Shown: piece after piece, positions 18,076-55,394 of the stretch
Layout of the letters: each line of letters opens with the position of its first letter
How positions within the stretch are numbered: the stretch's first letter is position 1
Assembly (NCBI GenBank): GCA_030789695.1
Contig: CM061130.1
Coordinates: 13,197,860 to 13,261,859, forward strand
DNA: 64,000 bases
Direction: 5' to 3'
Origin: Scilla litardierei
Lineage: Eukaryota > Streptophyta > Magnoliopsida > Asparagales > Asparagaceae
Program-made: the position numbers and the translations under genes
The notes under the pieces: model-generated
What the model saw: only the letters and a program-made list of their open reading frames with translations
What the model was told of the DNA's origin: nothing
The model's database searches: none

Positions 18076-19682
18076 TTCTCCCGCTTTTTGGTGATGACAC
18101 ACGAACATAAATAATAATCAATAATAATGATTCAAATGAAATTTACTTACTCCCCCTGCATTGATGACACGTTAATTCCAAATTAAATAATAATCATACG
18201 AAGCAAGCAGATGAGAAAAGAATAAAATGTGAATTCAATTATTGAAATATCAGATTTGAAATCCATTTTTATATCTTAACTCCCCCTGAATCTAACATAT
18301 CAAATTAGATTCACGGTAAATTGCTTTGAATTATCGTTTATCACATCGTCATATTAATTCTCTCCCCCTTTGGCATTAGCAAAAAGAGCGAGAGGAGATC
18401 AACGACAACAACAATGTCTAAAAAATAAAAGCACGAGAGTTGAAGAGTACGACCACGGTCCAAATGACACCAATGTAAAATAACGAATAAAATCAAAGCG
18501 TGCCAATGAGACCATAGTCGAAAATCGAAAAATGAAATCATCAAAACTTAAATCAATTTCACATATTGAGTTATGGAACATACTCTCCAATATCAACATT
18601 CTGAGTGAATTTAGTGCATGGAAAACAATTCTATGTTTTCATAGAAAGAATTCTATTTAATCAATTTAATCTTCGAGCGACGAAATCAACATCAGAGACA
18701 AAAAGAATATAATGTGCACACTGAAGTAAATGGCAATACGATGTATATATATATAAGAACATGGTACAAAAAAAATATACATCCGCCAACACTAATATAA
18801 ACGATCATCAGATCGGAGCACATCATACAACATATGTCTCAACAGACATCAAAACGAATATACATCAAAGTGTATCATCAACACATCCAAAAAAAATCAA
18901 AAATATATAACCACCCAACTATCCTACCCCACTCTCTCACAACAAATATATCATCCAAGTGCACATGGGAGAGTCCTCCAACGCACGCTCAGGAGGCGGA
19001 GGGAGGATCAGCAACAGCACCAGGCGCTGAAGAAGAGGGAGAGAGGAGATATACCCTAGGAGGAGGAGAGTGATCGGCACCGGCTGACGGTGGCCGGAGA
19101 CGGCGGAGCACGGCGGAGGGAGGAGAGGAGACACGGGGTTAGGGTTTTGAGAAGAAGTTACGCACCGATTAGAATTAGTTCTAATCGGTGCGGAGGAGAT
19201 TTAAGTCGAATTGGGATGCCAAAAGACACAACAGCCCCTGTGCAACTAGTCGGCCTAAGTTCAAGTGCTGACCGACTAGAATGCAATCTAGTCGGTCGGC
19301 CAATGAGCTTGGACCGACTAACAGCAAACAGTAACTGAAGTCAAAAATAAGGCATGAGTTAGTCGGTCTGAGTTCATTCACTGACCGACTAGAACTGAAA
19401 CTAGTCGGTCGGCTAATGAACTGGGACCGACTAAAAAGTCCAAAAATTTGAAATATCGAAATTTTGAGTTCTCTCCTAAGAGCACTTGGTCGAAACATTG
19501 AAGTACTCTCATACATCATTAATATACCCCATAAAACATCGAAAATCATAAATACGACGTGCATGAATATATCTAGCATAAATTCCAAAAATCCAACCAT
19601 AAATCCAGAAAATCCCAACACATCTAGCATGAGTATATATAAAGAAAATTATTATCATGCAAGATTATTGAAAATATGAATC
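18076..19682 (-). other. Internal 3' region of chimeric element
   Basis: No intact gene. Contains two polypurine complements (18076-18091 and about 18361-18375), AT-rich DNA and a GC-richer stretch at 18990-19140 where an env-like gene would be expected but is not recognisable. Confidence 0.55.
19240..19437. repeat. Two CTAGTCGGTC modules between pol and 3' LTR
   Basis: Two modules like those of the type A LTR, starting near 19246 and 19358. The corresponding place in the complete element is about 37056-37243. Confidence 0.85.
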
Positions 19683-33424: not shown

Positions 33425-33436
33425 TATGATGTTCAC

Positions 33437-33700: not shown

Positions 33701-33701
33701 A

Positions 33702-34470
33702 AGGAGCCAACTGCAAGGCATATAAATTCCAGATTCAAGAGATAAACCATGGATCCACTGCAAAGCATATATATAAATCAAGTAGGCAAGGCAAAGAAAC
33801 CAGTTGATAACAGAGGGTTAGAAGAGCTAACCCATGGAGCCAACTGCAAGGCATATAAATTCCAGATTCAAGAGATAAACCATGGAGCCAGTGCAAGACA
33901 TATATATAAATCAAGTAGGCAAGGCAAAGAAACCAGTTGATAACAGAGTGTGAGAAGATATAACCAAAGGAGCCAACTGCAAGGCATATAAATTCCAGAT
34001 TCAAGAGATAAACCATGGAGCCACTGCAAGGCATATATATAAATCAAGTAGACAATGCATAGAAACCACTTGATAACACAGGGTGAGAAGAGATAACCCA
34101 AGGAGCCAACTGCTTGGCATATAAATTCCAGATTGAAGAGATAAACCAAGGAGCAATGTAAGGCATATATATAACTCAAGTAGGCATTGCATAGAAACCA
34201 CTTGAAAACACAAGGAGAGAAGAGATAAACCTTGGAGCCAACTGCAAGGCATATAATTTCCTGATTCAAGAGATAAACCATGGAGCCACAGTAAGACATA
34301 TATATAAATCAAGTAAGCAAGGCAAAGAAACCAGTTGATAACAGAGGATGAGAAGAGCTAAACCATGGAGCCAACTGCAAGGCATATAAATTCCTGATTC
34401 AAGAGATTAAACCATGGAGCCACTGCAAGGCATATATATAAATCAAGTAGGCAATGCACAGAAACTCAAG
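33702..34470. repeat. 133-bp tandem array, left
   Basis: About six units with a period of about 133 bp, each containing GCCAACTGCAAGGCATATAA and a TATATATAAATCAAGTAGGC block. The same unit recurs at 55.9 and 56.7-57.4 kb, beyond the 20-kb SIRE-like insertion. Confidence 0.93.
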
Positions 34471-34797: not shown

Positions 34798-35532
34798 TGT
34801 AATGCCCTGCTAAGCTACTGCACAAGTACTAGAGGGGGGGGGGTGAATAGTACTTTAAAATAATTAAGAAGATAATTCCTAATTATCTTGCAAACTCTAC
34901 CAATTAATGTGGAAATGCGGAAATGTAAATATTAGACAACAAAGAAGACAATCGCAAACAAGCAATTTAACGGGTTCGGATCCACCCAAGTCTCCCCGAC
35001 TTGTTCCCGATGATCCTACGTCCCAACCATCCGGATCCCTTCTGGATACTTGAGTTAGAAACCCTAACTCAAGATTTGCACTATGAAATTCTTGTAGAAA
35101 ACCTCTACAAGATCAAATCATACACAAATGGAAATGTGACTCCCACAAACCGGGATCACAACAAACTCTCACAACCGAGAGTGAAACACTTACAATATCA
35201 ATGTAAATTGAAATAGAAATTCTTGCCGACAAAATCCTATGCCTTGAGTAAACTTACGATTTAGGGCAAAACGGATTTTGGGGAAGATGAAGAGGCACCA
35301 AACCATAGCTCCAAGTAGATGACCAGCAATGGAGTCCTAGGTGGATGTTGGTGACCTAGAATCAAGCACTTGGCTTGGAAGGCTCACAATCAATGAATCT
35401 CTCTTTTGAAATAAGAGTGAGAGAGAGATTCTTGAATGGAAATGAATGAGCTTTGAATGAGATTGAATGCTTCTCTTTTGATCTCTAAACTTCTCTTAAT
35501 ATCAGCCTTGAGTGTAATGAATGCAGAACTCC

Positions 35533-35544
35533 AAGTATTTATAG
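35533..35544 (-). promoter_or_regulatory. LTR TATA box, type A
   Basis: The minus strand reads CTATAAATACTT, about 65 bp downstream of the palindrome array. The 5' LTR has the same box at 54155-54166. Confidence 0.65.
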
Positions 35545-35609
35545 GATAGAGAAAAGAGAGAGCAAAAATCATTTCAATTAAAGCTCCAACGGCTCTATTC
35601 TGAACCAAA

Positions 35610-36125
35610 CTAGTCGGTCAAAGAACAACCACTGACCGACTAGTTCATCAAGTAGTCGGTCGGTTAAACAACATGAACCGACTAAGAGGTGAACAGTGAA
35701 TAGATGAAGTTTCAGACTTAAAGAACTAGTCGGTCCAAGAAGACTTGCCAACCGACTAGTTTCACAACTAGTCGATCGGTGAGTGAACTTAGACCGACTA
35801 AGAGATAAAACAAATAGTCTGAGTACAAATTGATTTAGTCGGTCCAAGAACAAATGTTGACCGACTAGTTCATCAACTAGTCGATCGCCAAATGTACATT
35901 GACCGACTAACGATAAACAGTAACTTGGCATGTACAGGGAAAGCTCAACTAATCGGTCTAAGAAGGATCACTGACCGACTAGTTCACCAACTAGTCGGTC
36001 GGTGAGTCAACGTAGACCGACTAACTGTAAACAGTAAAGAGTTTTGAATTGAAGGAGGCAAACAGTCGGTCCAAGAAGCTTTGCCGACCGACTAGATCAC
36101 CATCTAGTCGGTTGGTTCTTCTTCT
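35610..36125. repeat. Five-module CTAGTCGGTC array, 3' LTR
   Basis: Module starts 35610, 35726, 35835, 35949 and 36063 (spacing 116, 109, 114, 114). Each GACCGACTA contains ACCGAC, the DRE/CRT core. Confidence 0.92.
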
Positions 36126-36540
36126 TGAACCAACTAACATGCACAAGAAGTCGCGAATCGAAGTGCGATGCTTCAGGAAAGTTCGTATGGACTTCTACTA
36201 AGATCCTAGCTCTAAGATATGAGCGTTATGAAGATTAAAACGTAAGACCTACTCAAGGCTTAACATTCTACGGAACGAAGCTAAAAGACTATAAATAAAA
36301 CTTGACGAACCGTCTTCGAAAGCTTCGATCCGAATCTTCATGACTTCAATAATGGTCCATAAGCTTCAACGAAGCTTTAGGCATACGATCACGCGCTTTG
36401 AGAAGTCTCGAGACGTCGCTTTGGATGTTCATATGAATTTGGCGACGATCTCCATAACTGCGCTCACAAAGAGTTAGTTCACGATATATTTATGTTTGTT
36501 CATCATCCAAAACCAAATCCGGGGAGTCCAATACTCAACA

Positions 36541-37497
36541 TTCTCCCCCTTTTTGGTGATGACAAACCAACATAAATAATAATCAAAAAATAATGATTCA
36601 AATGAAATTTACTTACTTCCGATGCATTGATGACACGTTAATTCCAAAATGAATAATAATAATACACATCAAGCAGACGAGTAAAGTAAAAATTGAGAAT
36701 TCAATTATTGAAATATCGGATTTGAAATCCATTTTTATATCTTAACTCCCTCTGAATCTAACATATCAAATTAGATTCTTGGAAAAAATTCTTTAAATTA
36801 TCATTTAGCTCATCGTTATTATTATATCTCTCCCCCTTTGGCATTAGCAAAAAGAGTGGGAGGAGAGGGAGAGATCAGTGGCCGGAGTTGGTCGGAAAGA
36901 TGGCCGAAAATCGACGGAGGAGGGAAGGAAGTCGAAGGGTCTCGGGGGGGGGGGGGGGGGGTTTGAGCTGAAGAGGAGATTTCGATCGACTAGAATAGGA
37001 TAGAATGAGTTTAAGTCGATCGGAATGCGAAAAGACCAAGCAGTCCCCGATGCAATTAGTCGGTCACAGTTCAAGCACTGACCGACTAGATGATGATCTA
37101 GTCGGTCGGTCACTGAGCTTGAACCGACGAATTGCAAACTGTAACTGAAGCCAAATTTAGGGCTTGAGTTAGTCAGTCTGAGTTCATTCACTGAAAGACT
37201 AGATGATGATCTAGTCGGTCGGTCAATGAACATGAACCGACTAACAGTGTTCAAAAATTTTAGAATTTGAAATTTTGAGTTCTCTCCTAATCTAACTTGG
37301 ACGAAACATTGTTATACTCTCATTAATCATTATACTACCCCATTAAACATCGAAAATCTGAAATTTGACGTTTACGAACAAATCGAGCGAAAATTCCGAA
37401 AATTCAACGAAAAATCCAGAAAATTCCAATACATCAAGCATGTGCAAATATAATGAAATTGAATAGCATGAAAGATTATTGAACATAAAAATGAATC
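36541..37497 (-). other. Pol-to-LTR spacer with two palindrome modules
   Basis: Polypurine complement at 36541-36556, a second CTCCCCCTTTGGCATTAGC at about 36832, an 18-G run at 36944-36961, and two CTAGTCGGTC modules at about 37056-37243. No env-like gene. Confidence 0.7.
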
Positions 37498-40400
37498 CTA
37501 AATCTCGGATTCACCCATAATCCCCAATTCTCGACGCAACCGCACAAAGGAGTCTTCCTTAAGGGGTTTCGTGAAAATATCGGCGATTTGCTTCTGGGTT
37601 TCAACGTACACTAATATGATGTCCTTTTTAGCAACATGATCATCTAAGAAATGGTGACGGACATCTATGTGTTTAGAATGGGAATGGTGTACCGGATTCT
37701 TAGAGAGACATGTTGCACTTTGGTTGTCTACCATGATAGGGCAAGTATCACAGTTTATACCAAAGTCTTTAAGAGTGTGTCTCATCCAAAGAACCTGAGC
37801 ACACGCGGCACCGGCGGCAATATATTCTGCCTCGGTGGTTGAAAGTGATACGGAATTCTGCTTCTTGGAAAACCAAGAGACAAGAGAATTTCCTATAAAA
37901 TGGCAAGTGCCACTAGTACTTTTCCTGTCGGATTTGCATCCCGCATAATCTGCGTCACGATATGAGATTAACTCATATGTGCTAAATTTTGGATAAAGTA
38001 ATCCAAAATCAAGTGTGTAACTTAAATAACAGAAAATACGTTTTACCGCTACTAAGTGAGATTCCTTAGGTTGAGACTGATAACGAGCACATACACATAC
38101 GGCAAACATAATATCGGGCCTACTTGCGGTAAGATAAAGTAAACTACCTATCATACCTCGATATAGACGAATGTCTACATCTTTACCGCCCGTATCCTTA
38201 TCAAGATGCGTAGTGGTGCTCATCGGAGTCTTCTTCCCGGAGGCATTCTCCATTCCAAATCGCTTTAGCAACTCCACCGTGTACTTCGTTTGGTGGATGA
38301 AAATTGCATCGTTCATTTGGTGAATTTGGAGACCGAAGAAATATTTGAGCTCACCCATGTGGCTCATCTCAAATTGATCCTTCATCACATTAGAAAACTA
38401 TTCGCACAGAGCAAAGTTAGTAACACCGAAAATGATATCATCAACATAAATTTGAACTAAAATTATATCATTATTCGAATACTTAACAAATAATGTGGAA
38501 TCAACTTCTCCCATTTTAAAACCTAAATCCAAAAGAAAATTCTTTAAACGGTCATACCAAGCTCGAGGAGCTTGTCTCAAACCGTAAAGTGCTTTCTTTA
38601 AGTTTGAAAACATGGTTTGGGAATTTTTCATTTATAAAACTCGGAGGTTGAGAAACATAAACTTCCTCAACAACATCTCCGTTTAAAAATGCACTTTTAA
38701 CATCCATTTGAAAGAGTTTAAAATCTTTATGGCATGCAAAAGATAACAATAATCTAATAGATTCTAATCTAGCTACCGGAGCAAAGGATTCTTCGAAATC
38801 AATACCTTCCTCTTGCCGATAGTCTTGAGCTACTAACCGAGCTGTGTTCCGGACAATGATTTGGTTTTCGTCGGTCTTGTTCTTGAAGATCCACTTTGTC
38901 CCTATGACGGTGTGGTTCTTCGATGGCAATGGAACAAGCTCCTAAACCTCATTTCTCTCGAATTGAATGAGTTCCTCTTCCATGGCAAGGATCCAAGCGC
39001 TATCTTCGCACGCTTCATAAATATTCTTTGGCTCAATCGAGGAGGCAAAGGCACAATGAGCGAAGTAGTTGACTTGCGATCTCGTCTTGACACTATCAAG
39101 GATATTGCCAATGACTTGCTCATGAGGATGGTCACAAACGGTATGAAGCCGTTTGGGAATTCCCTGATCACTAGGAACATTCTCAAAAACTTCATTAGTC
39201 GGGCTAGTATCATTAGAATCAATAGAGTTAGAATTACCAATTGAATCACATAAGACATCCATGGACTCATCATCATTAGTAATTCTAGTTGGGACAAAAC
39301 CTTCATTAAATGAAACATGAAGTAATTCCTCGATCGTTGAGGTTCGTTTGTTGTATAACCGGTAGGCTTTGCTACGGGAGGAATATCCAACAAATATCCA
39401 CTCATCAGATCTTGGATCAAATTTGTCCAAACAAGCATAAGTGTTTTTAATAAAACATTTTGCACCGAAAACACGAAAATGTTTAACTTGAGGCAACCTA
39501 CCAAACAACAATTCATAACAAGTTTGTTTAGTGCCGGGCCTCAAAAGTATCCGATTAAACACATAGCAAGCGGTATGTACCGCTTCCGCCCAAAATTGAT
39601 GGCCAAGTTGGCTATCATCAAGCATAGTGCGAGCACATTCCACTAGCGTCCTATTCTTTTTCTCAACAACACCATTTTGAGGAGGTGCGCGAGGGAATGA
39701 AAAGGTGTGTGTAATACCAACTTCATCACAAAAAGTTGAGAAAGACTCATTCTCAAATTCTCCTCCATGATCACTACGAATAGTGACAATGGTGGTTCCA
39801 ATGAGATTTTGTACTTTCTTAACAAAAAATGTGAAGTTTTCAAAAGCATCATTTTTATTACACAATGAAAATACCCAAGTAAACCTAGAAAAGTCATCAA
39901 CGATGACAAGTCCATAACGTGCATTTCCCAATGAAGTAACTCTAGTTGGCCCAAATAAATCTAGATGTAAAAGCTCTAGAGGCCGCTTAGAAGAAATACT
40001 TTTCTTAGGTTTAAATGATGATTTTGGAAGCTTGCCTCGTTGACACGAGTCACAAAAGCTCTTCTTTTGAAAGACTAGCTTAGGGAAGCCTCTAATAGAA
40101 TTTAACTTGGAAAGCTTAAATAGTGTTCCAAAGTTCACATGAACAAAACGTCGATGCCATAAGTGTTTCTCACTTGTGTTGGTAATGAGACATTGTTCAT
40201 GTGATCTCGGAAGATCTAGGATGTATATATCCTTATGGCGTGTGCCAGAAAACAATACATCATTAGTATTTTTATTCAAAATATGTCACATTCCTTTCTC
40301 AAAGCTAACTTTGTAACCTTTGTCACAAAGTTGGCTTATTCAAATAAGATTGTGGTTTAATCCTTTAACAAGGTAAACATCACTTATAAGTGGTTTAGAA

Positions 40401-40570
40401 GGATTACCCACTTTTCTAACACATATGATGGTTCCGCTTTCGTTGCCTCCAAAGACTACCCGGTTTCCATTTGCAATGGGAACCACTCCGGAGAGCAATT
40501 GAGCGTCACCCGTCATGTGTTTTGAACACCCGCTATCGAGTATCCAATTATTCTTGGAGCCAAATTTTGA
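37498..40570 (-). pseudogene. SIRE-like pol, near full length, broken
   Basis: Protease WILDSGCSKHMTG near 40550, then stops at about 40335 and 40283. GAG-pre-integrase LWHRRFVHVNFGTL and the integrase core follow (DLFGPT, DDFSRFTWVF, SDHGGEFENESF, NGVVEKKNRT) to a TAG at 38940 where Trp is usual. The RT half has [19 protein letters not shown], a frameshift near 38610, [15 protein letters not shown], intact YVDD in QIYVDDIIFG, and a TAG near 38398. RNase H follows (DADYAGCKSDRKSTSG, HSKHIDVRHHFLDDHV) to the stop at 37498. Catalytic residues survive; several nonsense codons and one frameshift remove function. Confidence 0.93.
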
Positions 40571-41105
40571 TTTGTTGCTCCTTTTCTTTCTCTTGAGTAC
40601 CTAAAGATAGAAAATATCGTATCATGGTACCCAAGGTCATTGGGTCCAAAAGATTAGACCTTTGGAAGCCAAGTCCAATTGGACTTAGACTTCCCCACAT
40701 AATTATCACTATGCACAACATTCATGGAATAAGAATTCATATAAACTTGTTTTTCATTCATGTTTGTGTCCTTTGGGCTCCAAATTGTGAAGATTTTGGG
40801 AGCCCTAATCCTATTGGGTGCATGCATGCGTTGTTGATTTCTACGTGATGCATGTCGTGGATATGCATAATGAACATGATGGAATGATGCATGATGATAT
40901 TTATTCATACGATGATGTGGGTGTACATATGCATGTGGAGGAACACGTGCATGAGGGTGTTCACATGGTGTGCACGTGCCCGTGGACGTGTAGCATAAAA
41001 ATCATCATATGTGTGAGCCGGTGGAGTAGGACGTGTGTTCCTACGTGGCATGGTATTTGTGTACATGTAGGCATGACCCTTCTTTGGAGGTCCACCCAAA
41101 GTGGG

Positions 41106-42893
41106 TTACTTTCCAAACGAGGGTGTGTACGAGGTGGAAGCACCATTGGTAGATGAACTACCAATAGAGTGTTTGCTACCACTCGTTGAGTCACCGGAAG
41201 TTGGCCTAACAAAGAGAGTGGCCGATTTAGATGAACTTCCCATCTTATACCCCAAGCCAATGTGGTGATTGGCCGGAAGTAAGTCATTTAGGATGTTATC
41301 CAAATGGCCCTTACCCTTATTGAATTTGTTAATTCGGCCTAATGTGCGCTCATATTTCTCGGTGAGAGAACGCATAGAAGCATCCAAAGTGGATACTTGC
41401 GATGTGAGCATATAAACACGAGATTTGATATTTTCATTCTCAATACTCAAAGTCGAGTTTTGAGAAGTCAAGTCCGCTATCTTGTGTTCCTCCGGATCCT
41501 CAATGCTAACATGTTCAAGTTGAGACTTGAGATTTACAATCTCATTTTTCAACTCTTCAACAACGGTGTCATTGTTGGTGATGATAGGTTTATGCGAGGT
41601 TTGGATGCTAGCTAAATCATCTTTTACTTTATTATATCTATTTACTAATTTAGTGTATTTAGACCATAATTGCTCATTAGCATTTCTAAGGTCATCCATT
41701 GTTACCTCATCGTCGCCTTCATTGTCGCTATCATCGGAGGAGGAATCTTTATCTTGCTCCTCTCTAGCCATGAAGCACATATGTGCTTGCTCCACTTGCT
41801 CATCATACGACTCTCCGCTTGAAGAATCGTCGGAGTCGGTGAATGTCCCGACAAGCCCCTTTTTGTACTCTTTCTTATACTTAGACTTGTCAAACTTGGG
41901 CGCCTTCCACTTCTCCTTTTGCTTATTTTGAGGACAATCTGCTTTCATGTGTCCTGGCTTATTGCATTTAAAGCACAAAGGAGAGGAGGCGTTAGAAGAA
42001 TTAAACTTCGATTTGTTTTTGAGGTTACCTTTCCGGAAGAACCGGTTGAACTTCTTTGCCATGAGGGCAATAGATTCCAAGTCTAATTCTTCTTCCGATT
42101 CTTCATCAACGGTAGATGTTGATGTTGATGGAGCGGCCTTGAAAGCAATAGCCTTTTTCTTTGGCTCGTCTTGCTTCAAGTAGGACTTCATCTTGTCCTG
42201 CAACTTCATCTTGCTATCCTTGCATACCTCATACGACATCAAGGTACCCATTAGTTGAACAACGGTATAAGTTTTCATATCATTACCTTCCTCGATAGCG
42301 AAGGTACGTTTCTCCCAATAAGAAGAAAGTCCATCGATGATCTTCGAGATTTTCTCCTTTTGGGTGTAGGTTTTACCGAGAGCCTCCAACTCGTTTGTGA
42401 TGTCGATGAAGCGAGCATAATACTCCTTCATCTTCTCACCCTGTAGCATATGAAATAACTCGTAATCTTTATTAACTACAACGAATTTAGATTCTCTTAC
42501 CCTACTCGTTCCTTCATGCAATATGAGGAGGGAGTTCTATATTTGATATGCACTCTTACATGTGCATATCTTATTGAAGTCCTCGGGCTCCAAAGCGCAT
42601 TGCAAGGCGTTCATTGCCTTGGCATTGCTTACCTCCGCGGTGACCTCTGCGGTAGTCCACTTCTCGAAATCTTCTTCGACGAGCTCGACACACTCCTTCG
42701 TCGTGGCCCTCCATAGTGAAGCACTCCGGAGGAAAGTTTCCATCTGGCATTTCCAGTACCCGTAATTGGTACCGTTGAAGAAGGGAGGCCTCGTCGAGGA
42801 GTGTCCTTCCATCACCGAAGACGCTCCTTCACGGTTCCTGAAGGTGATGTAATCTGAAGGTGGACGCACGATTTTGTTGTCGTTGGTAGACAT
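41106..42893 (-). pseudogene. SIRE-like gag, one nonsense codon
   Basis: Starts MSTNDNKIVRPPSDYITF, then RPPFFNGTNYGYWKCQME. A TAG at 42537-42539 replaces a conserved Trp; the same frame resumes with LLILHEGTSRVRESK and runs to 41106. The UBN2-type domain has the motif MKEYYARFIDITNELEALG, the CCHC knuckle is CFKCNKPGHMKADC, and an acidic Asp/Ser linker leads to a long coiled-coil-like C-terminal half (DLTSQNSTLSIENENIKSR), a known SIRE/Maximus trait. It would build the particle. Restricted to one visible stop, it is the best-kept gag in the window. Confidence 0.92.
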
Positions 42894-42902
42894 AGCTATA
42901 GA

Positions 42903-42920
42903 CTTGGCTCTGGTACCAAA
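42903..42920 (-). promoter_or_regulatory. Primer-binding site, initiator Met tRNA
   Basis: The minus strand reads TTTGGTACCAGAGCCAAG next to the 5' LTR, matching TGGTATCAGAGC with one change. Confidence 0.9.
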
Positions 42921-43341
42921 TGTAATGCCCTGTTAAGATACAGCACAAGTACTAGAAGGGGGGCGAATAGTGCTTTAAAATAATTAAGAAGATAATTCCT
43001 AATTATCTTACAAACTCTACCTATTAATGCGAAAATGCGGAAATGTAAATATTAGACAACAAAGAAGACAATCGCAAATAAGCAATTTAACGGGTTCGGA
43101 TCCACCCAAGTCTCCCCGACTTGTTCCCGGTGATCCTATGTCCCAACCACACGGATCCCCTCCGGATACTTGAGTTAGAAACCCTAACTCAAGATTTACA
43201 CTATGAAAGTCTTGTAGAAAACCTCTACAAGATCAAATCATACACAAATGGAAATGTGACTCCCACAAACCGGGATCACAAACAAACTCTCACAACCGAG
43301 AGTGAAACACTTACAATATCAATGTAAATTGAAATAGAAAT
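42921..43341 (-). repeat. 5' LTR type A, 3' piece
   Basis: TGTAATGCCC... up to the gypsy insertion; the rest of this LTR resumes at 53843. The last five bases GAAAT are the target duplication. Confidence 0.95.
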
Positions 43342-43772
43342 TGTCACGCCCCGCTTCCCAAAACAGCGGAGGCGAAGCGTGACTAGGATTTCTTAGGCCA
43401 GAGCTAAGGAGCTCAGACCCAATAAGCGTCTGTGTGGTACCAAGACGAAGGTACAGGTCCTTGCATGCTAGTACAGAACAATAAAAGTACAAGAAGGAAA
43501 GAACATCATATTTTCTTCCAACATATCAAGAGTACCAAGTCTCAACGCTCGAAGGGCTACAACAGCAGAAAAGCAAATCTAATGGTGCAAGCACCCAACC
43601 TAGACAAGGAAACAAAAGGGGCTACGCACCCAGCTAAAAGTAATAAACGTCTCTGAAAACTGCAACGAGGAGTCTCTAGCTCTGGTCCTCCTCAGGGTCG
43701 TACTCAGGATCGACGCCCTCTGGCTCCACGTCAGCTGGCAAGTCAGTCTCCTCAACGTACTCTGGCTCAATC

Positions 43773-43811
43773 CCTGACGTACAGCACCAAAAGAAGGAAC
43801 TGTACGTCAGG
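43773..43811. repeat. 12-bp stem inverted repeat in LTR
   Basis: CCTGACGTACAG and CTGTACGTCAGG enclose a 15-base loop; a perfect stem, also present in the 5' LTR near 51445-51483. It lies in the transcribed R/U5 portion. Confidence 0.9.
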
Positions 43812-44138
43812 CAAGGTCTACAAGAAAAGGTTAGACCAAACTGCAAGTGCACCAATTACTTAACAATGTTTTACTGGTTGATTAACATGCTGAGGTTTTA
43901 ACAACAGAAGTACACGCAACATGAAAGTAAACACGACAAGTAGTGGTCGTAGCGAGTGCTACCGACCACGGGACTAGTCTACAGGTGTCAAGACAAGACG
44001 GAACATGGAAAGCCAGACACGACAAGACAAGACACGAAAGGGTTCACGCCTGTTCGGTTCGAGGGGGATCAGACCCTCTTGCCGCTTGCACGCTCAACCC
44101 TACCCCAAAACCCCAAGAATCGTGACAAGACAAGGGAT

Positions 44139-44301
44139 CACTTGCTCTAGCTTGACAAGTGCCCTATTGCTCTCTGAGCTGTGTATCAATACATGGGATC
44201 ACCTGCTCTAGCTTGACAGGTGCCCAATTGCCCATCGGGCTGTGAACTAGTACAAGGGATCACTCGCTCTGGCTTGGCGAGTGCCCTATTACCCAGCGGC
44301 C
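44139..44301. repeat. Three tandem hairpin units with covarying stems
   Basis: Units start exactly 61 bp apart (44139, 44200, 44261). Hairpin one has stems CACTTG/CAAGTG, CACCTG/CAGGTG and CACTCG/CGAGTG, always with an 11-base loop. Hairpin two has GCTC/GAGC (44169-44179), GCCC/GGGC (44230-44240) and a shortened CCC/GG(G) form at 44291-44301. The 5' LTR carries the same set from 51811. Confidence 0.93.
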
Positions 44302-45390
44302 TGTGCAGACGGAACAGGACAAGGCACGACAAAACAGGAGGGGTTATACTAGGGTGTCCACAACTCACGCACACGCATGTCAATCCTATGATGTCAAAAT
44401 TGTTGTTGTTGGACTCAGATTTCGTTGTCAAATCTGAGCCATCAAGGGCGTCCCGGACGCTATCATTTCACGTCCGGTTCTCATGTTTCTAAAATAGCAA
44501 TTCTAACGAGACTAAGGCCTAAACATGGCCAAGAACGCAAGTGGTACACTTGCCTGAGGTGACGAGTGCGTCGTCTCCCTGGTACGTCTCGTCCAAACGT
44601 CTCGTCGACGGAAAAGCATCTGAAAATCGTGACACGGCGACGGTGTCAGTTCACGATTCAGAATTCCTATTAGGGTTGTGTCTAGATTATCGGGACTAAC
44701 CTAATCTTCGGAAGTCACATTTTTAATGTATTTAGCCTAGTCGACGATCTACCCTATGTGCACATGCGAGGAGTCCGTTCGTCGAATTATCTATGGTTGC
44801 ACAACGTTTTAAAGAGGAGCGGAAAGTAAATTTAATTTGATTAGGTTGCTGATTTTACTTAGGGTTTGATTATCTATTGTGTGGGTTACTACGAATTTAG
44901 GGGACCAACCTGAAAATGACGGTTGCACGAAGATCCGGCGTCAGATCTGGAAAGGTGGAAGCTTTGCGTCGTCCAGAAATTCCTAAGCCGCGGGTAGCAC
45001 AGTGAGGAACGTCGATTGTTGATGATGACGTTGGCCTCCGAAGGTGATGACGAAGGTCTTGGCGTCTCCCGGGGTCGTCGTCGTCGGGTCTGAGATAGGA
45101 ACACCACGCAAGAGGAAGAAATGGGTCTCGGAAAAAGGGCGTGGCTGGAGCTTGGCCGCAGATCTCAGATCTGAGGGGAGATGAGGGGTGGTCGGCTATT
45201 TGTGTGGAAAAATCGGAGGAGGAAGAAGAAACGGGAGAACGGAGAATGGAGAATGGAAAGGGGAGGAGATCAGATTGATCCCGTGAAGGTGGAGGGCGCT
45301 CGAGAGGAGGAGAAAACTTAGGGAAATGAGGGAGATAGGTTGGGGAAGACAATGGCTGGAAATAATGAGGAGAAAGGAAAAAGAACCACA

Positions 45391-45400
45391 CGTTTAAATA
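45391..45400 (-). promoter_or_regulatory. Chromovirus LTR TATA box
   Basis: The minus strand reads TATTTAAACG, about 50 bp downstream of the palindrome array; the same box is in the 5' LTR at about 53047-53056. Confidence 0.5.
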
Positions 45401-45447
45401 AGAAAACGAACCGGCGGCTAGGTCAAAACTAGGGTTTCGGGGGTCAG

Positions 45448-45975
45448 TTAGTCGGTCTGAGAAGGGCGGTTGACCGACTAGTTTGAGAACTAGTCGGTCG
45501 GTCGTCTAACTGTGATCGACTAGAAGGCAAACAGAGAACAGTGTCGGTACAGTGTGATAGATTTAGTCGGTCTGTGAAGGCTCGTCGACCGACTAGTTTG
45601 CAACATAGTCGGTCGGCCAGTGTTCATTAACCGACTAAAGGGAAAAAGTGGTCGACAGGAAGTTTTGAAAATTAGTCGGTCTGAGAAGGAAACTTAACCG
45701 ACTAATTCGTCAACTAGTCGGTCGGTATTCATTCTTAAACCGACTAATGATAAACAATAACTCAACTGCATGCAATGATATCTAACTTAGTCGGTCTGCG
45801 AAGAAGTGTTGACCGACTAGTTCGACAACTAGTCGGTCGGTGGATGAACTTAGACCGACTAAGAGTAAACAGTAACTCAAGGGAAAAACCTGACAGAAAC
45901 TAGTCGGTCCATGAAGAGTTTCTGACCGACTAGATTGACATCTAGTCGGTCGGTCCTTGTTCTTGAACCGACTAT
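45448..45975. repeat. Five-module CTAGTCGGTC array, chromovirus 3' LTR
   Basis: Module starts 45448, 45563, 45672, 45787 and 45900 (spacing 115, 109, 115, 113). Sequence and spacing match the array of the copia type A LTRs; for example ACTAGTCGGTCGGT and ACTTAGACCGACTAAGAG occur in both. The counterpart in the 5' LTR is 53103-53630. Confidence 0.93.
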
Positions 45976-46175
45976 AGTGCACACCAAGTCTCCAAATGAA
46001 GTGTGAAGCTTCGAGATGGGTTGTAGGGACTCCTAAGATGAGTCTGACTCTAAGATAAGAGCGTCATGAAGCACGCTCAGCTCCAGATAGGAAAAAAAGA
46101 TACGGAAAAGAAAAGAGAGAAGTCGAACAATCATATATATTAATAAACATCATCATACAGAAACCAGCCGTTACA

Positions 46176-46200
46176 TCCTACCCACCTTAAGAAAATTTCG
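46176..46200 (-). promoter_or_regulatory. Polypurine tract of chromovirus
   Basis: The minus strand reads AAGGTGGGTAGGA directly before the LTR start TGTAACGG. Confidence 0.7.
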
Positions 46201-46260
46201 CCCTCGGAATTTCTGTCAGAATAGGTGAGGGTAACGCACTCTCATCTTATCCTCTCTCTC

Positions 46261-47778
46261 CTAAGTGGACTCTCCAGGTGATCCGTGACGCCACATCACT
46301 CTCACCAGGTCTACTACCTTATTCATCAACTGCTTCTGTTGACGGTCCAAAATCTGCACGGGCTGCTGGTCATAGGTCAGGTCCGGACGGACCGTGATCT
46401 CCGAGAAATCCACCGTGTGCGATGGATCGCTGACGTACCGACGCAACTGAGATACGTGGAAAACGTCGTGAACCCCCACCAAAGATGGTGGCAGAGCAAG
46501 GCGGTAGGCCACTGCTCCCACACGCTCCAGTACATCAAAAGGTCCGATGTACCTCGGACTCAGCTTCCCCTTCTTCCCGAATTGAATAACTCCGCGGTTC
46601 GGAGAAATCTTCAGGAAGATGTGATCTCCAGGCTGAAACTCCAAAGGTCTCCTCTTGGCATCCGCCCAATGATTGAATCGATCCTATGCGACCCTGAGCT
46701 TCTCCCTGATGTATCTCACGACATCCACAGCTTCAACTATCATTTTCGGACCCAACAGCTCCCGATCTTCAATGTCATCCCAACTCAGTGGCGATCGACA
46801 TTTCCTCCCATATAAGGCAGCAAACGGCGCTATGCCAATGCTCGCCTGGTAGCTGTTGTTATAAGAAAACTCCACCAAATGGAGATGGTCCTCCCAAGAT
46901 CCCTTCAAATCGAGCGTACAAGCTCGCAGCATATCCTCTAGTATCTGAATAGTCCTCTCGGACTGGCCGTCGGTCTGCGGGTGGTACGCCGTGCTGAAAC
47001 TCAGACTCGTATCCAAATTCTCCTGCAGACTTCTCTAGAACTGAGATATGAACCTCGTATCTCTGTCAGACACGATGCTCACGGGGACTCCGTGTAAGCG
47101 TACAATCTCCTGCACATACACGGCCTATGTCACAACTAACCCAAAGAGGAACAATCAAAATAGAAGTAAAAGAAGAAATTTTACCTCTAGATACTTCCTC
47201 GCCAAAGCTTCCGTAGACTGGCCCACTCAGAAAGGAATGAAATGCGTAGACTTAGTCAACCGATCAATGATCACCCAGACTGCGTCATTCTGTTTCGGGG
47301 TCCAAGGTAAACCAGTCACGAAATCCATCGTAATATGTTGCCACTTCCACTCCGGAATAGGAAGCGGTTGCAGCAACCCAGCAGTACGATGGTGCTCGGC
47401 CTTCACCTGTTGGCATATCAAACACTTGGCAACACTCCGTGCCACACTCCTCTTCATGCCAATCCACCAGTAATTCAGTCGAAGGTCCTTATACATCTTG
47501 GTGCCACCAGGATGTATAGAATAAGGAGAGCTATGAGCCTCGCTCAAAAGCTCCTCCCGAACATAACCCGCAGGTACGCAGAGTCTGCTGCCGTACCGCA
47601 GCGAACCATCCTCATGAATCACAAACTCCGCACGCAGTCCAGCTTCAACCTGCATCCGGATCCTCTGCAACTTCGGATCTCCAGCCTGTGCTGCCTTGAT
47701 CCGATCCATGATCGTGGACTGAATCTGCAAATTCATGAATGAAAGAACCACACCAGGTAGGACGACCTCCAAATCCAT
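46261..47778 (-). pseudogene. Chromovirus integrase with chromodomain-like tail
   Basis: Zinc-binding H2C2 region IHPGGTKMYKDLRLNYWW...CLICQQVK, integrase core with MDFVTGLPWTPKQND, SIVSDRDTRF and a catalytic-Glu region GQSERTIQILEDML, then a linker FLKISPNRGVIQFGKKGKL and a C-terminal LVRVMWRHGSPGEST ending in TAG at about 46263 where chromodomains carry Trp-Glu. Stops also follow HFIPF (about 47225), ISQF (about 47035) and REKLRVA (46684). A 60-bp GT-AG interval interrupts the core at 47125-47184. It would insert element DNA and target heterochromatin. Inactive. Confidence 0.92.
47125..47184 (-). other. 60-bp intron-like insert in integrase
   Basis: On the minus strand it begins GTAAAATTTC after CTAGAG and ends TGTGACATAG before GCCGTG. 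Removing it restores frame and the family motif: KYLE joined to AVYVQEIVRLHG. The insert is pyrimidine/T-rich and has in-frame stops. Confidence 0.6.
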
Positions 47779-47814
47779 CTCCTTCAGCTCCTACTGAATC
47801 CTCCAGTCAGCAGT

Positions 47815-48999
47815 ATGCATCATCGCAGTAGGAAGTCTACTCAAAGCATCCGGCACTACGTTCACCTTCCCCGGATGATACTGCAGATCTATCTCATAGT
47901 CAGCCATGAGCTCCAACCATCGCCTCTAACGCATGTTGAGCTCCTTCTGCGTGAATATGTACTTCAAACTTTTGTGATCGGTGAAAATCTTCACGCTCTC
48001 ACTCAGTAAGAAGTGCCTCCAGATCTTCAATGCAAAGATCACCGCTGCCAACTCCAGATCGTGTGTCGGGTAATTCTTCTCGTGCGTCCTCAATTGACGA
48101 GAAGCATACGCGACCACATGGCCATGCTGATGCAAAACGCATCCTAGGCCCTTCCCTGATGCATTACAATATACTTCGAAGCCTCCACTTCGATCCGGTA
48201 CCGCCAAAACTGGTGCCGTGGTCAACCTCACCTTCAAGATACTGAAAGCCTCCTCACAAGCATCAGACCACTAAAACTCCACATCCTTCCTCGTCAGCTT
48301 CGTCATCGGCTCAGCAATCTTCGAGAAATCCTTGATGAACCGCCGATAATAACCTGCTAGGCCAAGGAACCTCCTGATGTCGGACGCTGACTGCGGAGTC
48401 GGCCAATCTTGAACTGCTCTGATCTTCTCCGGATCTACAGATATGCCATCACCGGACACCACGTGTCCCAGGAATACGACTCTGTCCAGCCAGAACTCGC
48501 ACTTGCCATATTTGACATACAACTTGTGTCGCCTCAGCGTCTCCAGCACTGTCCTCAGATGACAGCTGTGCTCTTCTTCAGACTTCGAGTAAATAAGAAT
48601 GTCGTCAATAAATATAACGACAAACTTATCCAGGAAGTCGTAGAAAATCAAATTCATGAGGTTCATGAACACAGCTGGAGCATTGGTCACACCGAAAGGC
48701 ATTACCACAAACTTATAGTGCCCGTACTTCGTCCTGAAAGCTGTCTTCGGTATGTCATCCTTCTTCACCTTCAACTGATGATACCCGCTCATCAAATCCA
48801 ACTTCGAGAAAACTCTCGAACTTCCCAGCTGATCAAAAATGTCATCGATGCGCGGTAGCAGATACTTGTTCTTCACGGTGACAGCATTCAATCCTCGATA
48901 GTCCACGCACATCCTACGGGACCCATCCTTCTTCTTCACAAGCAACACAGGTGCACCCCACGGTGACACACTAGGGTGGATGAAACCCTTCTGCAACAA
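47815..48999 (-). pseudogene. Chromovirus reverse transcriptase and RNase H
   Basis: RT motifs [54 protein letters not shown] and catalytic [12 protein letters not shown] are intact. After LTRKDVEF a TAG at about 48271 interrupts the join to WSDACEEAF. RNase H has [13 protein letters not shown], where the first catalytic Asp is Asn, and a stop at about 47926 (NMR-stop-RRWLEL) in place of Gln. It continues with [20 protein letters not shown] into integrase. A TAG also precedes [12 protein letters not shown] near 49003. Would copy element RNA; disabled. Confidence 0.93.
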
Positions 49000-49005
49000 C
49001 TCATC

Positions 49006-49674
49006 CTACTGCTTCCGCAGCTCCTCAAGCTCCGCGGGAGCCATCTGATACGGCGCCTTCGATATCGGCTGCGCACCCGGCATCAGATCGATACCGAACT
49101 CCAAAGCTCTGTCGGGTGGCAGACCCGAGATATCCTCCGGGAAGACGTCGTCAAAGTCTCTTACAACCGCTGGTCGGTCAAGCTCCATCTCCATCTGCAA
49201 CACTGCAACGACCGGCACCTCTGGCTTGGCCCGAAATCTGATGGGCCCAAGCGACTCATCTCTGCTGCGGAACTCGAACTCCGGATGGCCTGGAATCCGA
49301 AATACCACTCTCTTGCTGTGACAATCGATCGAAGCATGGAAATCTCCCAACCAATCGATGCCAAGGACGACATCGAAATGCGGTAGGTCGTGGACGGTGA
49401 AATCTGCATATAACTCAAGTCCACTAACCACCAAGGGAATCGACCGACATCCCAGGTTCACTGTCACCACTCCGTTCCCTGTGGTGATGTCCCAACACTT
49501 AGGGAGTGCGTGGGTAGGAATGGAGTGCTTTGTTATAAACCTCCGGGATATGATGCACATGGATGCACCGGAGTCAAACAAAGCCAAAGCAGGGTGAGAG
49601 AACACAAGAATGGTGCCTAGGAAAACAAGGGGTCTAAGGTCAAACACTACTCTAACAACCAAACAATCAAACAA
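49006..49674 (-). pseudogene. Chromovirus aspartic protease region
   Basis: Contains LALFDSGASMCIISRRF, with the retropepsin DSGA active site intact, then VVLGIDWLGDFHASIDC and the bridge to RT (FPEDISGLPPDRALEFGIDL). The open stretch ends at TAG near 49004, so the protease itself looks unbroken while the polyprotein is not. Confidence 0.9.
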
Positions 49675-49722
49675 ACAATACTAACAAGACTAGCAATACA
49701 ATATAGTTAAGAAATGAAATGA

Positions 49723-50884
49723 CTAGGTCAAGATGTTACCTGCAATCACCCCATCCATCTCCTCAGTCTCTACAGCAGTCATAGTATAGGCCGGCCTCGG
49801 AGGCTGCACTGCTCGCTGGTACATCTGTCGCTGTGGCACCAAGGGTGGTCCACGAACATCAGGTCCTCTCTGAGCTAGGGCAGGTGCCCTCATCTGCAAC
49901 GGGGCTGGCGCTCGAACAACAGCACCGCGGGCTCTAGGACAATCCTTCGCAGCATGCGAAGCATCTCCACAAAGTAGACACAGACCCAGCTTCCTCCTAC
50001 AGTTGGTCTGAACATATCCGGGCTTGCCGCAGAAATGGCACGAACCCTTGCTCAGCTGCTGCACTGGCACTCCAGGTCTCTTGAATGGCACCGTCTGGAC
50101 TGGCCTCATCGCCGGCCTGGCAGGTGGCTGGTACTGCTCCATAGGGCGCTTTCCTCTGTCCTCTGGAGTGTCAGGCAGGTGTGAAATCGTCTCATGATTC
50201 TTTGTAGCATCTAACACCCCTCATAGTCGAGAAACTAGCAGAGGACATGGAAGCCTAGACCTTCAGACGAAGTCCCTGACGGAACAGCTCAGCTCGGTTC
50301 TCCTCCTTCTTCACCATGTGTGGGGCAAAACGGCTCAGCATCTCGAATTCAGCCTCATACTCATCGATCGTCATGTCCCTCTGCTTCAGATCCACAAATC
50401 AGCCCATCAGCTCTCTCCTAGCTGCCTTGGTGAAGTACTTCTCCTTGAACATGTGGCAAAAAGTCTTCCACTCCACAGGCTTCTGCAGACGCCTCTCCTC
50501 AATACGCCACCAGTTTCAGGCAATCTCAGTCAGCTGCATCTTCGCAATCTCCACCCGAGTCTCATCTGGAATCTTGGCAGCTACCAATTTCTCCTCAGTG
50601 CTCTGGATCCACTCATCGGCACCCAGAGGTCCCACCTTCCCAGAGAAGGTCTTTGGCTGAAGCTCGTTGAACTGCTTCACTCCTGGAGCAGCTCGCGGAG
50701 CAGGCCGAGGTGGAGGTGGTGCAACAGGTGGGGCCTGTGCAGCACGGTTGGACTACTGCACCAATTGATGTTGCACCTCAAGCATCTCTCGCATCACACC
50801 AAGAAACTGACGGAACTCTCCGCCCTGGTCTTCCTGAATCCCATCTCCAGTGCTCCCCGATCGGGTAGTACGTCGCCCTGCCAT
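49723..50884 (-). pseudogene. Chromovirus gag with two CCHC boxes, broken
   Basis: Starts MAGRRTTRSGSTGDG at 50884. Stops interrupt at about 50755 and within the Retrotrans_gag domain (EIA-stop-NWWRIEERRL, ELMG-stop-FVDLKQRDMT). The knuckles are CHFCGKPGYVQTNC, in which the His ligand is Tyr, and an intact CLLCGDASHAAKDC, followed by a Pro/Arg-rich tail. Needed for particle formation; inactive. Confidence 0.9.
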
Positions 50885-51013: not shown

Positions 51014-53837
51014 TGTCACGCCCCGCTTCCCAAAACAACGGAGGCGAAGCGTGACTAGGCCCGCTTAGGCCAGAGCTAAGGAGCTCAGACCCAATAAGCG
51101 TCTGTGTGGTACCAAGACGAAGGTACAGGTCCCTGCATGCTAGTACAGAAAAATAAAAGTACAAGAAGGAAAGAACATCATATTTTATTCCAACATATCA
51201 AGAGTACCAAGTCTCAACGCCCGAAGGGCTACAACAGCAGAAAAGTAAATCTAATGGTGCAAGCACCCAACCTAGACAAGGAAACAAAAGGGGCTATGCA
51301 CCTAGCTAAAAGTAATAAACATCTCTGGAAACTACAACGAGGAGTCTCTAGCTCTGGTCCTCCTCAGGGTCGTACTCAGGATCGACGCCCTCTGGCTCCA
51401 CGTCAGCTGGCAAGTCAGTCTCCTCAACGTACTCTGGCTCAATCCCTGACGTACAGCACCAAAAGAAGGAACTGTACGTCAGGCAAGGTCTACAAGAAAA
51501 GGTTAGACCAAACTGCAAGTGCACCAATTACTTAACAATGTTTTACTGGTTGATTAACATGCTGAGGTTTTAACAACAGAAGTACACGCAACAGGAAAGT
51601 AAACATGACAAGTAGTGGTCGTAGCGAGTGCTACCGACCACGGGACTAGCCTACAGGTGTCAAGACAAGACGGAACACGGAAAGCCAGACAAGACAAGAC
51701 AAGACACAAAAGGGTTCATGCCTGTTTGGTTCGAGGGGGATCAGACCCTCTTGCCGCTTGCACGCTCAACCCTACCCCAAAACCCCAAGAATCGTGACAA
51801 GACAAGGGATCACTTGCTCTAGCTTGACAAGTACCCTATTGCTCTCTGAGCTGTGTATCAATACATGGGATCACCTGCTCTATCTTGACAGGTGCCCAAT
51901 TGCCCATCGGGCTGTGAACTAGTACAAGGGATCACTCGCTCTGGCTTGGCGAGTGCCCTATTACCCAGCGGGCTGTGCAGACAAAATAGGAGGGGTTATA
52001 CTAGGGTGTCCACAACTCACACACACACGCATGTCAATCCTATGATATCAAAATTGTTGTTGTTGGACTCAGATTTCGTTGTCAAATCTGAGCCATCAAG
52101 GGCGTCCCGGATGCTATCATTTCACGTCCGGTTCTCATGTTTCTAAAATAGCAATTCTAACGAGACTAAGGCCTAAACATGGCCAAGAACGCAAGTGATA
52201 CACTTGCCTGAGGTGGTGAGTGCGTCGTCTCCCTGGTACGTCTCGTCCAAACGTCTCGTCGGCGGAAAATCGTCTGAAAATCGTGACACGGCGACGGTGT
52301 CAGTTCATGATTCAGAATTCCTATTAGGGTTGTGTCTAGATTATCGGGACTAACCTAATCATCAAAAATCACATTTTTTAATGTATTTAGCCTAGTCGAC
52401 GATCTACCCTATGTGCACATGCGAGGAGTCCATTCGTCGATTTATCTTTGGTTGCACAACGTTTTAAAGAGGAGCGGAAAGTAAATTTAATTTGATTAGT
52501 TTGTTGATTTTACTTAGGGTTTGATTATCTATTGTGTGGGTTACTACGAATTTAGGGGACCAACCTGAAAATGACGGTTGCACGAAGATCCGGCGTCAGA
52601 TCTGGAAAGGTGGAAGCTTTGCGTCGTCCGAAAATTCCTAAGCCGCGGGTAGCGCAGCGAGGAATGTCGATTGTTGATGATGACGTTGGCCTCCGAAGGT
52701 GATGACGAAGGTCTTGGCGTCTCCCGGGGTCGTCGTCGTCGGGTCTGAGATAGGAACACCACGTGAGAGGAAGAAATGGGTCTCGGAACAAGGGTGTGGC
52801 TGGAGCTTGGCCGCAGATCTCAGATCTGAGGGGAGATGAGGGGTGGTCGGCTATTTGTGTGGAAAAATCAGAGGAGGAAGAAGAAACGGGAGAACGGAGA
52901 ATGGAGAATGGAAAGGGGAGGAGATCGGATTGATCCCGTGAAGGTGGAGGGCGCTCGGGAGGAGGAGAAAACTTAGGGAAATGAGGGAGATAGGTTAGGG
53001 AAGACAATGGCTGGAAATAATGAGGAGAAAGGAAAAAGAACCATGCGTTTAAATAAGAAAACTAACCATCGGCTAGGTCAAAACTAGGGTTTCGGGGGTC
53101 AGTTAGTCGGTCTGAGAAGGGCGGTTGACCGACTAGTTTGAGAACTAGTCGGTCGGTCGTCTAACTATGACCGACTAGAAGGCAAACAGAGAACAGTGTC
53201 GGTACAGGGTGATAGATTTAGTCGTTCTGTGAAGGCTCGGCGACCGACTAGTTTACAACCTAGTCGGTCGGCCAGTGTTCATTGACCGACTAAAGGGAAA
53301 AAGTGGTCGACAGGAAGTTTTGAAAATTAGTCGGTCTGAGAAGGAAACTTAACCGACTAGTTCGTAAACTAGTCGGTCGGTATTCGTTCTTAAACCGACT
53401 AATGATAAACAGTAACTCAACTGCATGCAATGATCTCTAACTTAGTCAGTCTGCGAAGAAGTGTTGACCGACTAGTTCGATAACTAGTCGGTCGGTGGAT
53501 GAACTTAGACCGACTAAGAGTAAACAGTAACTCAAGGGAAAAACCTGACAGAAACTAGTCGGTCCATGAAGAGTTTCTGACCGACTAGATTGACATCTAG
53601 TCGGTCGGTCCTTGTTCTTGAACCGACTAAAGTGCACACCAACTCTCCAAATGAAGTGTGAAGCTTCGGGATGGGTTCTAGGGACTCCTAAGATGAGTCT
53701 GACTCTAAGATAAGAGCGTCATGAAGCACGCTCAGCTCCAGATAGGAAAAAAAAGATACGGAAAAGAAAAGAGAGAAGTCGAACAATCATATATATATAT
53801 ATATATAAACATCATCATACAGAAACCAGCCGTTACA
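51014..53837 (-). repeat. 5' LTR of chromovirus, 2824 bp
   Basis: Near-identical to 43342-46175. It carries the same hairpin set (from 51811, first stem with one unpaired end), TATA near 53047 and the palindrome array at 53103-53630. An AT microsatellite lies near 53790. Confidence 0.96.
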
Positions 53838-55163
53838 GAAATTCTTACCGACAAAATCCTATGCCTTGAGTAAACTTACGATTTAGGGCAAAACAGATTT
53901 TGGGGAAGATGAAGAGGCACCAAACCCTAGCTCCAAGTAGATGACCAACAATGGAGTCCTAGGTGGATGTTGGTGACCTAGAATCAAGCACTTGGCTTGG
54001 AAGGCTCACAATCAATGAATCTCTCTTTTGAAATAAGAGTGAGGGAGAGATTCTTGAATGGAAATGAATGAGCTTTGAATGAGATTGAATGCTTCTCTTT
54101 TGATCTCTAAACTTCTCTTAATATCAGCCTTCAGTGCAATGAATGCAGCACTCCAAGTATTTATAGGATAGAGGAAAGAGAGAGCAAAAATCGTTTCAAT
54201 TAAAGCTCCAACGGCTCTATTCTGAACCAAACTAGTCGGTCAAAGAACAACCACTGACCGACTAGTTCATCATCTAGTCGGTCGGTGAAACAACATGAAC
54301 CGACTAAGAGGTGAACAGTGAATAGATGAAGTTTCAGACTTAAAGAACTAGTCGGTCCAAGAAGACTTGCCAACCGACTAGTTTCACAACTAGTCGGTCG
54401 GTGAGTGAACTTAGACCGACTAAGAGATAAAACAAATAGTCTGAGTACAAATTGATTTAGTCGGTCCAAGAACAAATGTTGACCGACTAGTTCATCAACT
54501 AGTCGGTCGCCAAATGTACATAGACTGACTAACGATAAACAGTAACTTGGCATGTATAGGAAAAGCTCAACTAGTCGGTCTAAGAAGGATTACTGACCGA
54601 CTAGTTCACCAACTAGTCGGTCGGTAAGTCAACGTAGACCGACTAACTGTAAACAGTAAAGAGCTTTGAATTGAAGGAGGCAAACTAGTCTGTCCAAGAA
54701 GCTTTGTCGACAGACTAGATCACCGTTTAGTCGGTTGGTTCTTCTTCTTGAACCAACTAACATGCACAAGAAGTCGCGAATCGAAGCGCGATGCTTCGGT
54801 AAAGTTCGTATGGACTTCTACTAAGATCCTAGCTCAAAGATATGAGCGTTATGAAGATTAAAACGTAAGACCTACTCAAGGCTTAACATTCTACGGAACG
54901 AAGCTAAAAGACTATAAATAAAACTTGACGAACCGTCTTCGAAAGCTTCGATCCGAATCTTCATGACTTCAATAATGGTCCATAAGCTTCAACGAAGCTT
55001 TAGGCATACGATCACGCGCTTTGAGAAGTCTCGAGACGTCGTTTTGGATGTTCATATGAATTTGGCGACGATCTCCATAACTGCGCTCACAAAGAGTTAG
55101 TTCACGATATATTTATGTTTGTTCATCATCCAAAACCAAATCCGGGGAGTCCAATACTCAACA
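53838..55163 (-). repeat. 5' LTR type A, 5' piece
   Basis: Resumes the copia LTR broken at 43341 after the duplicated GAAAT, and contains the palindrome array (about 54232-54745), TATA at 54155-54166 and the LTR start TGTTGAGTATTGG (minus) at 55163. Confidence 0.95.
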
Positions 55164-55394
55164 TCTGGGTGTGGGGGATCCTTCCATTCGTAGTATTTGC
55201 ATTTTTGTAAACCGCACGAGGGACATCTCCAAAATCTCCTACTAGTATTTGTTCAGGTCCACGAAGTTTTCCTACCAACCCGAAGGCCACAGTGGCAAAC
55301 CCTCGTGTCATCGGGATCTGCATCCAAATCACCCCTTGGCGCAACTCTAGGACGAGACTAAACAGAGGAGCTGGACCCGGTACTCATGTGTACC
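55164..55394 (-). pseudogene. GRF zinc-finger protein, N-terminal half
   Basis: One minus-strand frame reads RVCHCGLRVGRKTSWT, a TGA at 55253-55255, then RRFWRCPSCGLQKCKYYEW and KDPP. This is the GRF zinc finger with its C-x-C-G start, RRFxxCP and EWxDPP signature. GRF fingers bind single-stranded nucleic acid and occur in APE2, TOP3A and many small plant proteins. The frame runs to the TCTGG target site, where the 20-kb copia element splits it from its C-terminal half (34534-34797). An upstream TAG near 55360 leaves the true start unknown. Confidence 0.75.

Follow-up and report, generated by a model that had tools for sequence, protein, structure and literature searches.

A palindromic promoter block shared by long terminal repeats of Ty1/copia and Ty3/gypsy elements in Scilla litardierei and its probable exchange between the superfamilies

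A stretch of 64,000 nucleotides from the genome of Scilla litardierei (assembly GCA_030789695.1, contig CM061130.1, positions 13,197,860 to 13,261,859; the window in what follows) contains retrotransposons of two superfamilies, the Sirevirus-like Ty1/copia elements SIRE A and SIRE B and the Ty3/gypsy element GY1, whose long terminal repeats (LTRs) carry the same array of palindromic modules, preceded by a homologous flank that is free of palindrome arms. We think, with a probability of about 0.8, that Sirevirus-type copia and gypsy elements of this host exchanged this cis-regulatory cassette of upstream flank and tandem modules at some time in the past, with the SIRE lineage as the likelier donor, and that the arms are putative double-stranded protein sites that would link the promoter with a host factor. 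The exchange itself is well supported by the sequence comparisons, which reveal one homologous, collinear block within bounded, duplicated elements of both superfamilies and a nearly invariant arm geometry. The cassette would have been retained in both superfamilies at the same place, shortly 5' of the TATA box, and its transfer may have involved template switching between RNAs packaged together, or else capture in the course of nested insertion, an example of which is present in the window, where GY1 lies inside a SIRE LTR.

The block is marked by the word GACCGACTA, which is found in 77 exact copies on both strands of the window, where 0.25 are expected and shuffling yields at most one. A previous sequence-only reading had claimed that the same palindrome array is present in a copia and a gypsy LTR, and this is confirmed by bounded elements with distinct gene order and Pfam domains. 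All block-bearing SIRE and GY1 elements of the window are oriented on the minus strand. The 3' LTR of SIRE A (34798..36541) is defined by self-comparison, its LTR ends and the duplication CCAGA, which borders SIRE A at both sides. Word positions and module spacing place its five-module array at 35608..36137, and profile hits place the arm-free, gypsy-homologous flank upstream of the array at 36138..36319, with the homology reaching about 36233 in comparison with GY1 and about 36319 with GY2/GY3, further gypsy groups of this genome. The 5' LTR of SIRE A is interrupted by GY1 (43342-53837), so that its first part, including an array at about 54230-54760, is found at 53838..55164 and its remainder at 42921-43341; GAAAT flanks GY1 on both sides. 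The GY1 LTRs, again delimited by self-comparison and their ends, span 43342..46175 (3' LTR, with a five-module array at 45448..45975 and the SIRE-homologous arm-free flank at 45976..46075) and 51014..53837 (5' LTR, array at 53103-53630), and the pair differs by K=0.031. The second SIRE copy, SIRE B, has an LTR at about 16349-18075 with a five-module array at 17149..17670. Misassigned or unbounded LTRs as a source of artefact are ruled out by the LTR ends and target duplications.

The coding pieces of SIRE A (37501..42536) are arranged in copia order (gag, integrase, reverse transcriptase, RNase H), with rve (38945-40285) ahead of RVT_2 (37501-38397 and the preceding piece) in the sense direction. 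Those of GY1 (46264..50220) follow the gypsy order of gag-like region, protease, reverse transcriptase, RNase H and integrase, represented by RVT_1, RT_RNaseH and then Integrase_H2C2. At the C terminus of the GY1 integrase, Pfam yields SH3_Tf2-1 and no chromodomain; the subsequent residues resemble a chromodomain. The names Sirevirus for SIRE A and Tekay/Del-like for GY1 are provisional and go by such features. SIRE B appears to be internally deleted at 19686-20343, where its RNase H end adjoins a gag-like reading frame. Past the 5' LTR of GY1, the sequence at 50985-51035 appears unlike the usual initiator-Met primer site, and a similar stretch is found at another gypsy-type locus, L010. The nested insertion of SIRE A and GY1 is flanked on either side by the same 133-bp tandem repeat (33699-34465 and 56705-57356).

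In sense direction, the LTR start is followed by the arm-free flank, of which about 75-160 bp are homologous, then by 3-6 modules and finally by the TATA box, which lies at most about 100 bp past the last arm as read in the LTR sequences. Each module consists of the four arms TAGTCGGTC, GACCGACTA, TAGTCGGTC and GACCGACTA, with 23, 19 and 23 bp between successive arm starts. Across 74 arrays with 352 modules, adjacent exact arms in pairs of the first kind show the 23-bp step in 406 of 409 cases (pairs 15-31 bp apart), and those of the second kind show the 19-bp step in 226 of 227. Together, these steps place arms of the same direction 42 bp apart, corresponding to four turns at 10.5 bp, and the gap between modules spans 43 to 60 bp. 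The initial G of the arm varies freely, with 16% mismatches in 1408 arms, and the remaining eight positions show 0.7 to 3.5%, a conservation that is partly built in because the modules were located through their arms. The module spacings claimed before were reproduced on re-measurement: in sense order, the module starts are separated by 113,114,109,116 in SIRE A, 114,114,110,115 in SIRE B and 113,115,109,115 in GY1. Spacings of about 114,114,109,116 are common to SIRE and GY1, GY2/GY3 have 113-116, and some SIRE copies possess six modules or a step of 124-125. The description as a five-module array fits the GACCGACTA arrays in the LTRs of the window; across the sample the module number ranges from 3 to 6. 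The module is also present outside any LTR: the linkers of SIRE A (37057..37220) and SIRE B (19270..19434) each contain two modules of the same geometry, 112-115 bp apart. Spacer words are shared as proposed, with ACTTAGACCGACTAAGAG at 35787, 45848, 53503 and 54409, and AAACAGTAACT at 35915, 45867 and four other positions.

The homology extends beyond the palindromes. A profile made from 13 flanks 5' of gypsy arrays detected SIRE B with E=1.1e-17 and the SIRE A LTRs with 4.2e-11 and 7.8e-11 in the array-masked window, and the next match, besides the window's own GY1, had E=1.1. In a control set, the same profile matched SIRE A (1.2e-18) and SIRE B (1.8e-18) and recovered held-out GY1 and GY2 LTRs, and it found nothing significant in the two relatives SIRE C and GY4. 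With a profile built only from GY2/GY3 flanks, the SIRE matches (1.2e-9, 5.2e-8, 1.4e-7) spanned 135-158 bp and the GY1 matches (5.3e-8, 1.1e-6) 73 bp, the latter being no better than the former. The flank and downstream profile searches gave no homology between SIRE and gypsy 3' of the last arm. LTR homology is accordingly not limited to the array: it continues past the upstream side and stops where the array ends downstream. Within the modules, the non-arm identity to SIRE in register amounts to 60.5% for GY1, 66.1% for GY2 and 65.8% for GY3, compared with 50-62% when the modules are shifted out of register and 25-27% for shuffled letters, and the module orders that match or beat the true one number 2 of 120 for GY1, 2 of 120 for GY2 and 5 of 120 for GY3. 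The first module is most clearly homologous (69-75%) and the middle modules are mixed, which we read as module turnover. Similarity outside the palindrome cores was specifically tested and is present in the flank as well as at the non-arm positions.

At the genome level, the word CTAGTCGGTC is found 832,078 times on both strands of 3.684 Gb, and its reversed control word 9,179 times; with 9.6 words per sampled array this gives a rough estimate of ~86,000 arrays. The first 100 listed places of this word form 23 clusters in 720 kb of the sequence C1, and among these listed matches 15 arrays belong to gypsy-type LTRs, 6 to SIRE LTRs and 2 to SIRE linkers, with none of the 23 outside SIRE or gypsy-type elements in these 720 kb. 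Two of the 15 gypsy-type assignments (GY3 in L010) were made by LTR ends without coding sequence, and second arrays of LTR pairs were assigned by distance where the fetched sequence was partial. In L010 (C1:52400-62399), the arrays are 6.3 kb apart in gypsy-type LTRs of an element that is possibly non-autonomous, and none of the coding pieces tried gave a match there. All 30 GY1 LTRs retrieved as exact matches to a single start word possess the array, with five modules in 23 cases and a range of 3 to 5. Gypsy elements retrieved through a reverse transcriptase word have the array in 17 of 20 cases (all 5 within the initial 720 kb and 12 of the 15 elements that follow), a proportion biased against array-less families by the derivation of this word from array-bearing ones; two of the remaining three stretches belong to SIRE LTRs, and the third could not be assigned. 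SIRE LTRs retrieved by their start word contain five modules in the fetched stretch in 11 of 12 cases. In the exception, L082, the whole block is missing; read by eye, this resembles a deletion whose junction contains a templated filler of 21 bp.

In copia and gypsy lineages alike, the block has a patchy distribution. GY4, known from one copy, is 81-82% identical to GY2, the value for GY1 being 75-77%, and its 678-bp LTR contains neither an array nor a detectable flank. Searches for an empty site in GY4 with LTR-start, upstream-flank and downstream profiles, at first without and then with a positive control, remained nonsignificant (best E=0.21, downstream stretch). In the GY4 copy, a copia-type sequence occupies the position of the 5' LTR. 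The locus L020 was rejected as an array-bearing GY2 element: its coding sequence is GY4, and the array belongs to a solo LTR of GY2 type that is inserted in the LTR of GY4, with CAAAC on both sides. It is therefore treated as a GY2-type LTR in the array, flank and module comparisons and as GY4 in the coding comparison. On the copia side, SIRE C (11640-13440), a third and diverged SIRE-like LTR, has a palindrome of a different sequence, ACAGTCGACTGT, ahead of a TATA-like box and gave no match to the flank profile of the block. Another palindrome, CACTCGRCCGAGTG, is clustered at 1900-2260, 5456-5690 and 10960-11250 in what by eye is read as an LTR element, and two pieces near these clusters gave no Pfam family.

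Trees of the block were calculated from 45 of the 74 arrays, leaving out L040, L051, L052 and L060, whose first modules are absent or out of place, as well as five arrays from second LTRs or nearly identical copies, and the redundant GY1 loci of L036-L058; distances were taken from 32 of the 74 arrays, all with five modules. SIRE, GY1 and GY2 each form a single strongly supported clade, and the branches of SIRE, GY1 and GY2/GY3 join as a near star. The mean p-distance between SIRE and the gypsy groups is 0.312-0.329, between GY1 and GY2/GY3 0.332-0.342 and between GY2 and GY3 0.205, and SIRE is closer to GY2 than GY1 is to GY2 in 95.5% of site bootstraps. The integrase DNA of GY1 and GY2 differs by ~24%. 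The exchange seems roughly contemporary with the separation of GY1- and GY2-type families, unless constraint blurs the distances.

That each lineage built its own array because a single host factor selected the same sites would be conceivable in principle, since the three palindrome array types of the window, GACCGACTA, ACAGTCGACTGT and CACTCGRCCGAGTG, indicate that such arrays do arise repeatedly. Palindrome convergence is nevertheless insufficient, because arm-free gypsy flanks find SIRE LTRs after the arrays have been masked, and collinear non-arm identity (60-66% in register versus ~26% shuffled), module order and common module spacings argue against it as well. As had been proposed, exchange is preferred over convergence, which we reject as the source of the shared block and consider highly improbable. 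Both lineages could instead have captured the same outside sequence independently, for example a promoter of the host or some other mobile element; the near-star distances would fit such a common source, as would the different extent of flank homology in GY1 and in GY2/GY3, but no array was found outside these elements among the 23 classified above, and we give this explanation only a small chance.

For the direction of an exchange, the Sirevirus lineage is favoured as the donor because Sireviruses have been described as having palindrome arrays in both LTR and linker, and the linkers analyzed here carry the module. Transfer from gypsy to SIRE, or several exchanges, would be compatible with the distances as well. 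A gypsy donor is suggested by gypsy blocks that are as diverse among themselves as they are different from SIRE, by midpoint roots that place SIRE among gypsy, and by SIRE C, which is without the block; against it stand the LTR and linker arrays described for many Sireviruses and GY4, which is nearest to GY2 and has no block in its one copy, so that we regard this direction as unlikely, though deserving serious attention. Several observations weigh against our view of a cassette donated by SIRE. In the unrooted trees, SIRE and the gypsy groups all form clades of their own, so that the trees do not give the direction, and midpoint rooting puts GY1 outside SIRE plus GY2/GY3. The middle modules do not keep a clear one-to-one identity, and the CACTCGRCCGAGTG array in another apparent LTR element means that arrays are maybe no privilege of copia.

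With respect to function, the arrays contain on average 16.5 to 21.8 ACCGAC words, which presumably represent the dehydration-responsive element/C-repeat (DRE/CRT) core of DREB/CBF factors, an assignment for which a literature search brought no support. Judged from its sequence, the block is likely an ACCGAC-rich enhancer; the bases beside the core match it in degree of conservation, which counts against a plain DRE. The Sirevirus motif study (PMC2829016) recovered mainly stress-related sites. It has to be considered whether the modules are rather kept as RNA or cruciform hairpins with a small-RNA or structural role. Five stretches fold at z -3.6 to -11.5, the first two of them out of module register, maize Sirevirus palindromes are reported as small-RNA hotspots (PMC5311732, PMC10760457), and some segments co-vary, namely the SIRE loop and the GY1 spacer beside the outer arms. 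However, spacer complementarity in 40 representatives is 0.468 for own and 0.447 for permuted pairs (fraction 0.09), and swapping of halves costs 1.6 kcal/mol of 41. Selection for hairpins is at most weak, and we rank protein sites above hairpins, an improbable basis of the conservation, because mirror positions hardly co-vary and swapped halves cost little.

LTR swapping in soybean has reportedly been described, judging from the title of a work by Du from 2010 that is cited in PMC6010443. Chromovirus CR subfamilies recombine as well (PMC4079200), and both cases resemble the present one in that segments were exchanged and recombinants spread; they differ in that exchange took place within one family or superfamily, whereas here it would join Ty1/copia with Ty3/gypsy. 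Palindromic repeated motifs (RM) with a CCG/CGG core, clustered in LTR and linker, are known from Sireviruses (Bousios et al. 2010, PMC2829016), and SIRE A shows this trait with its cluster of CCG/CGG-core palindromes upstream of the TATA box and in the linker. The likeness comprises position, many copies per element and the comparison with stress-factor motifs. Unlike the RM, which are called Sirevirus specific there relative to classic Ty1/copia elements, the homologous array and flank described here are also present in gypsy LTRs, and the arrays are built of four-arm modules of ~114 bp. A maize Sirevirus palindrome is likewise shared with another element class, the Helitrons (PMC10760457), but the passage concerned deals with the shared motif and does not extend to homologous flanks, the order of modules or a corresponding place in the LTR. 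No array common to copia and gypsy was found among the titles and abstracts listed by searches of an open-licence library, which is weak evidence of absence. Sirevirus arrays and exchanges within gypsy are already known, and the array common to copia and gypsy LTRs would be the new part.

Elsewhere in the window, a 2-kb self inverted repeat of 94.7% identity is located at 28170-30163, and a dual-specificity phosphatase domain (DSPc, E 9.5e-18) at 32658-33575 likely belongs to a host gene.

In the usual view, the evolution of LTR promoters takes place within one family. If the exchange is true, control sequences can move between unrelated retroelements, and LTR-based classification can be misled. 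How the RNAs of different elements meet would become testable through tree comparison. We tentatively suggest, while leaning somewhat against it, that the block is a promoter cassette which crossed between the superfamilies repeatedly, on separate occasions for GY1 and for GY2/GY3 at a minimum, and that unrelated copia and gypsy families with the estimated ~86,000 arrays might in this way respond to one host factor. If our interpretation holds, bursts of Ty1/copia and Ty3/gypsy elements would be coupled to one host signal.

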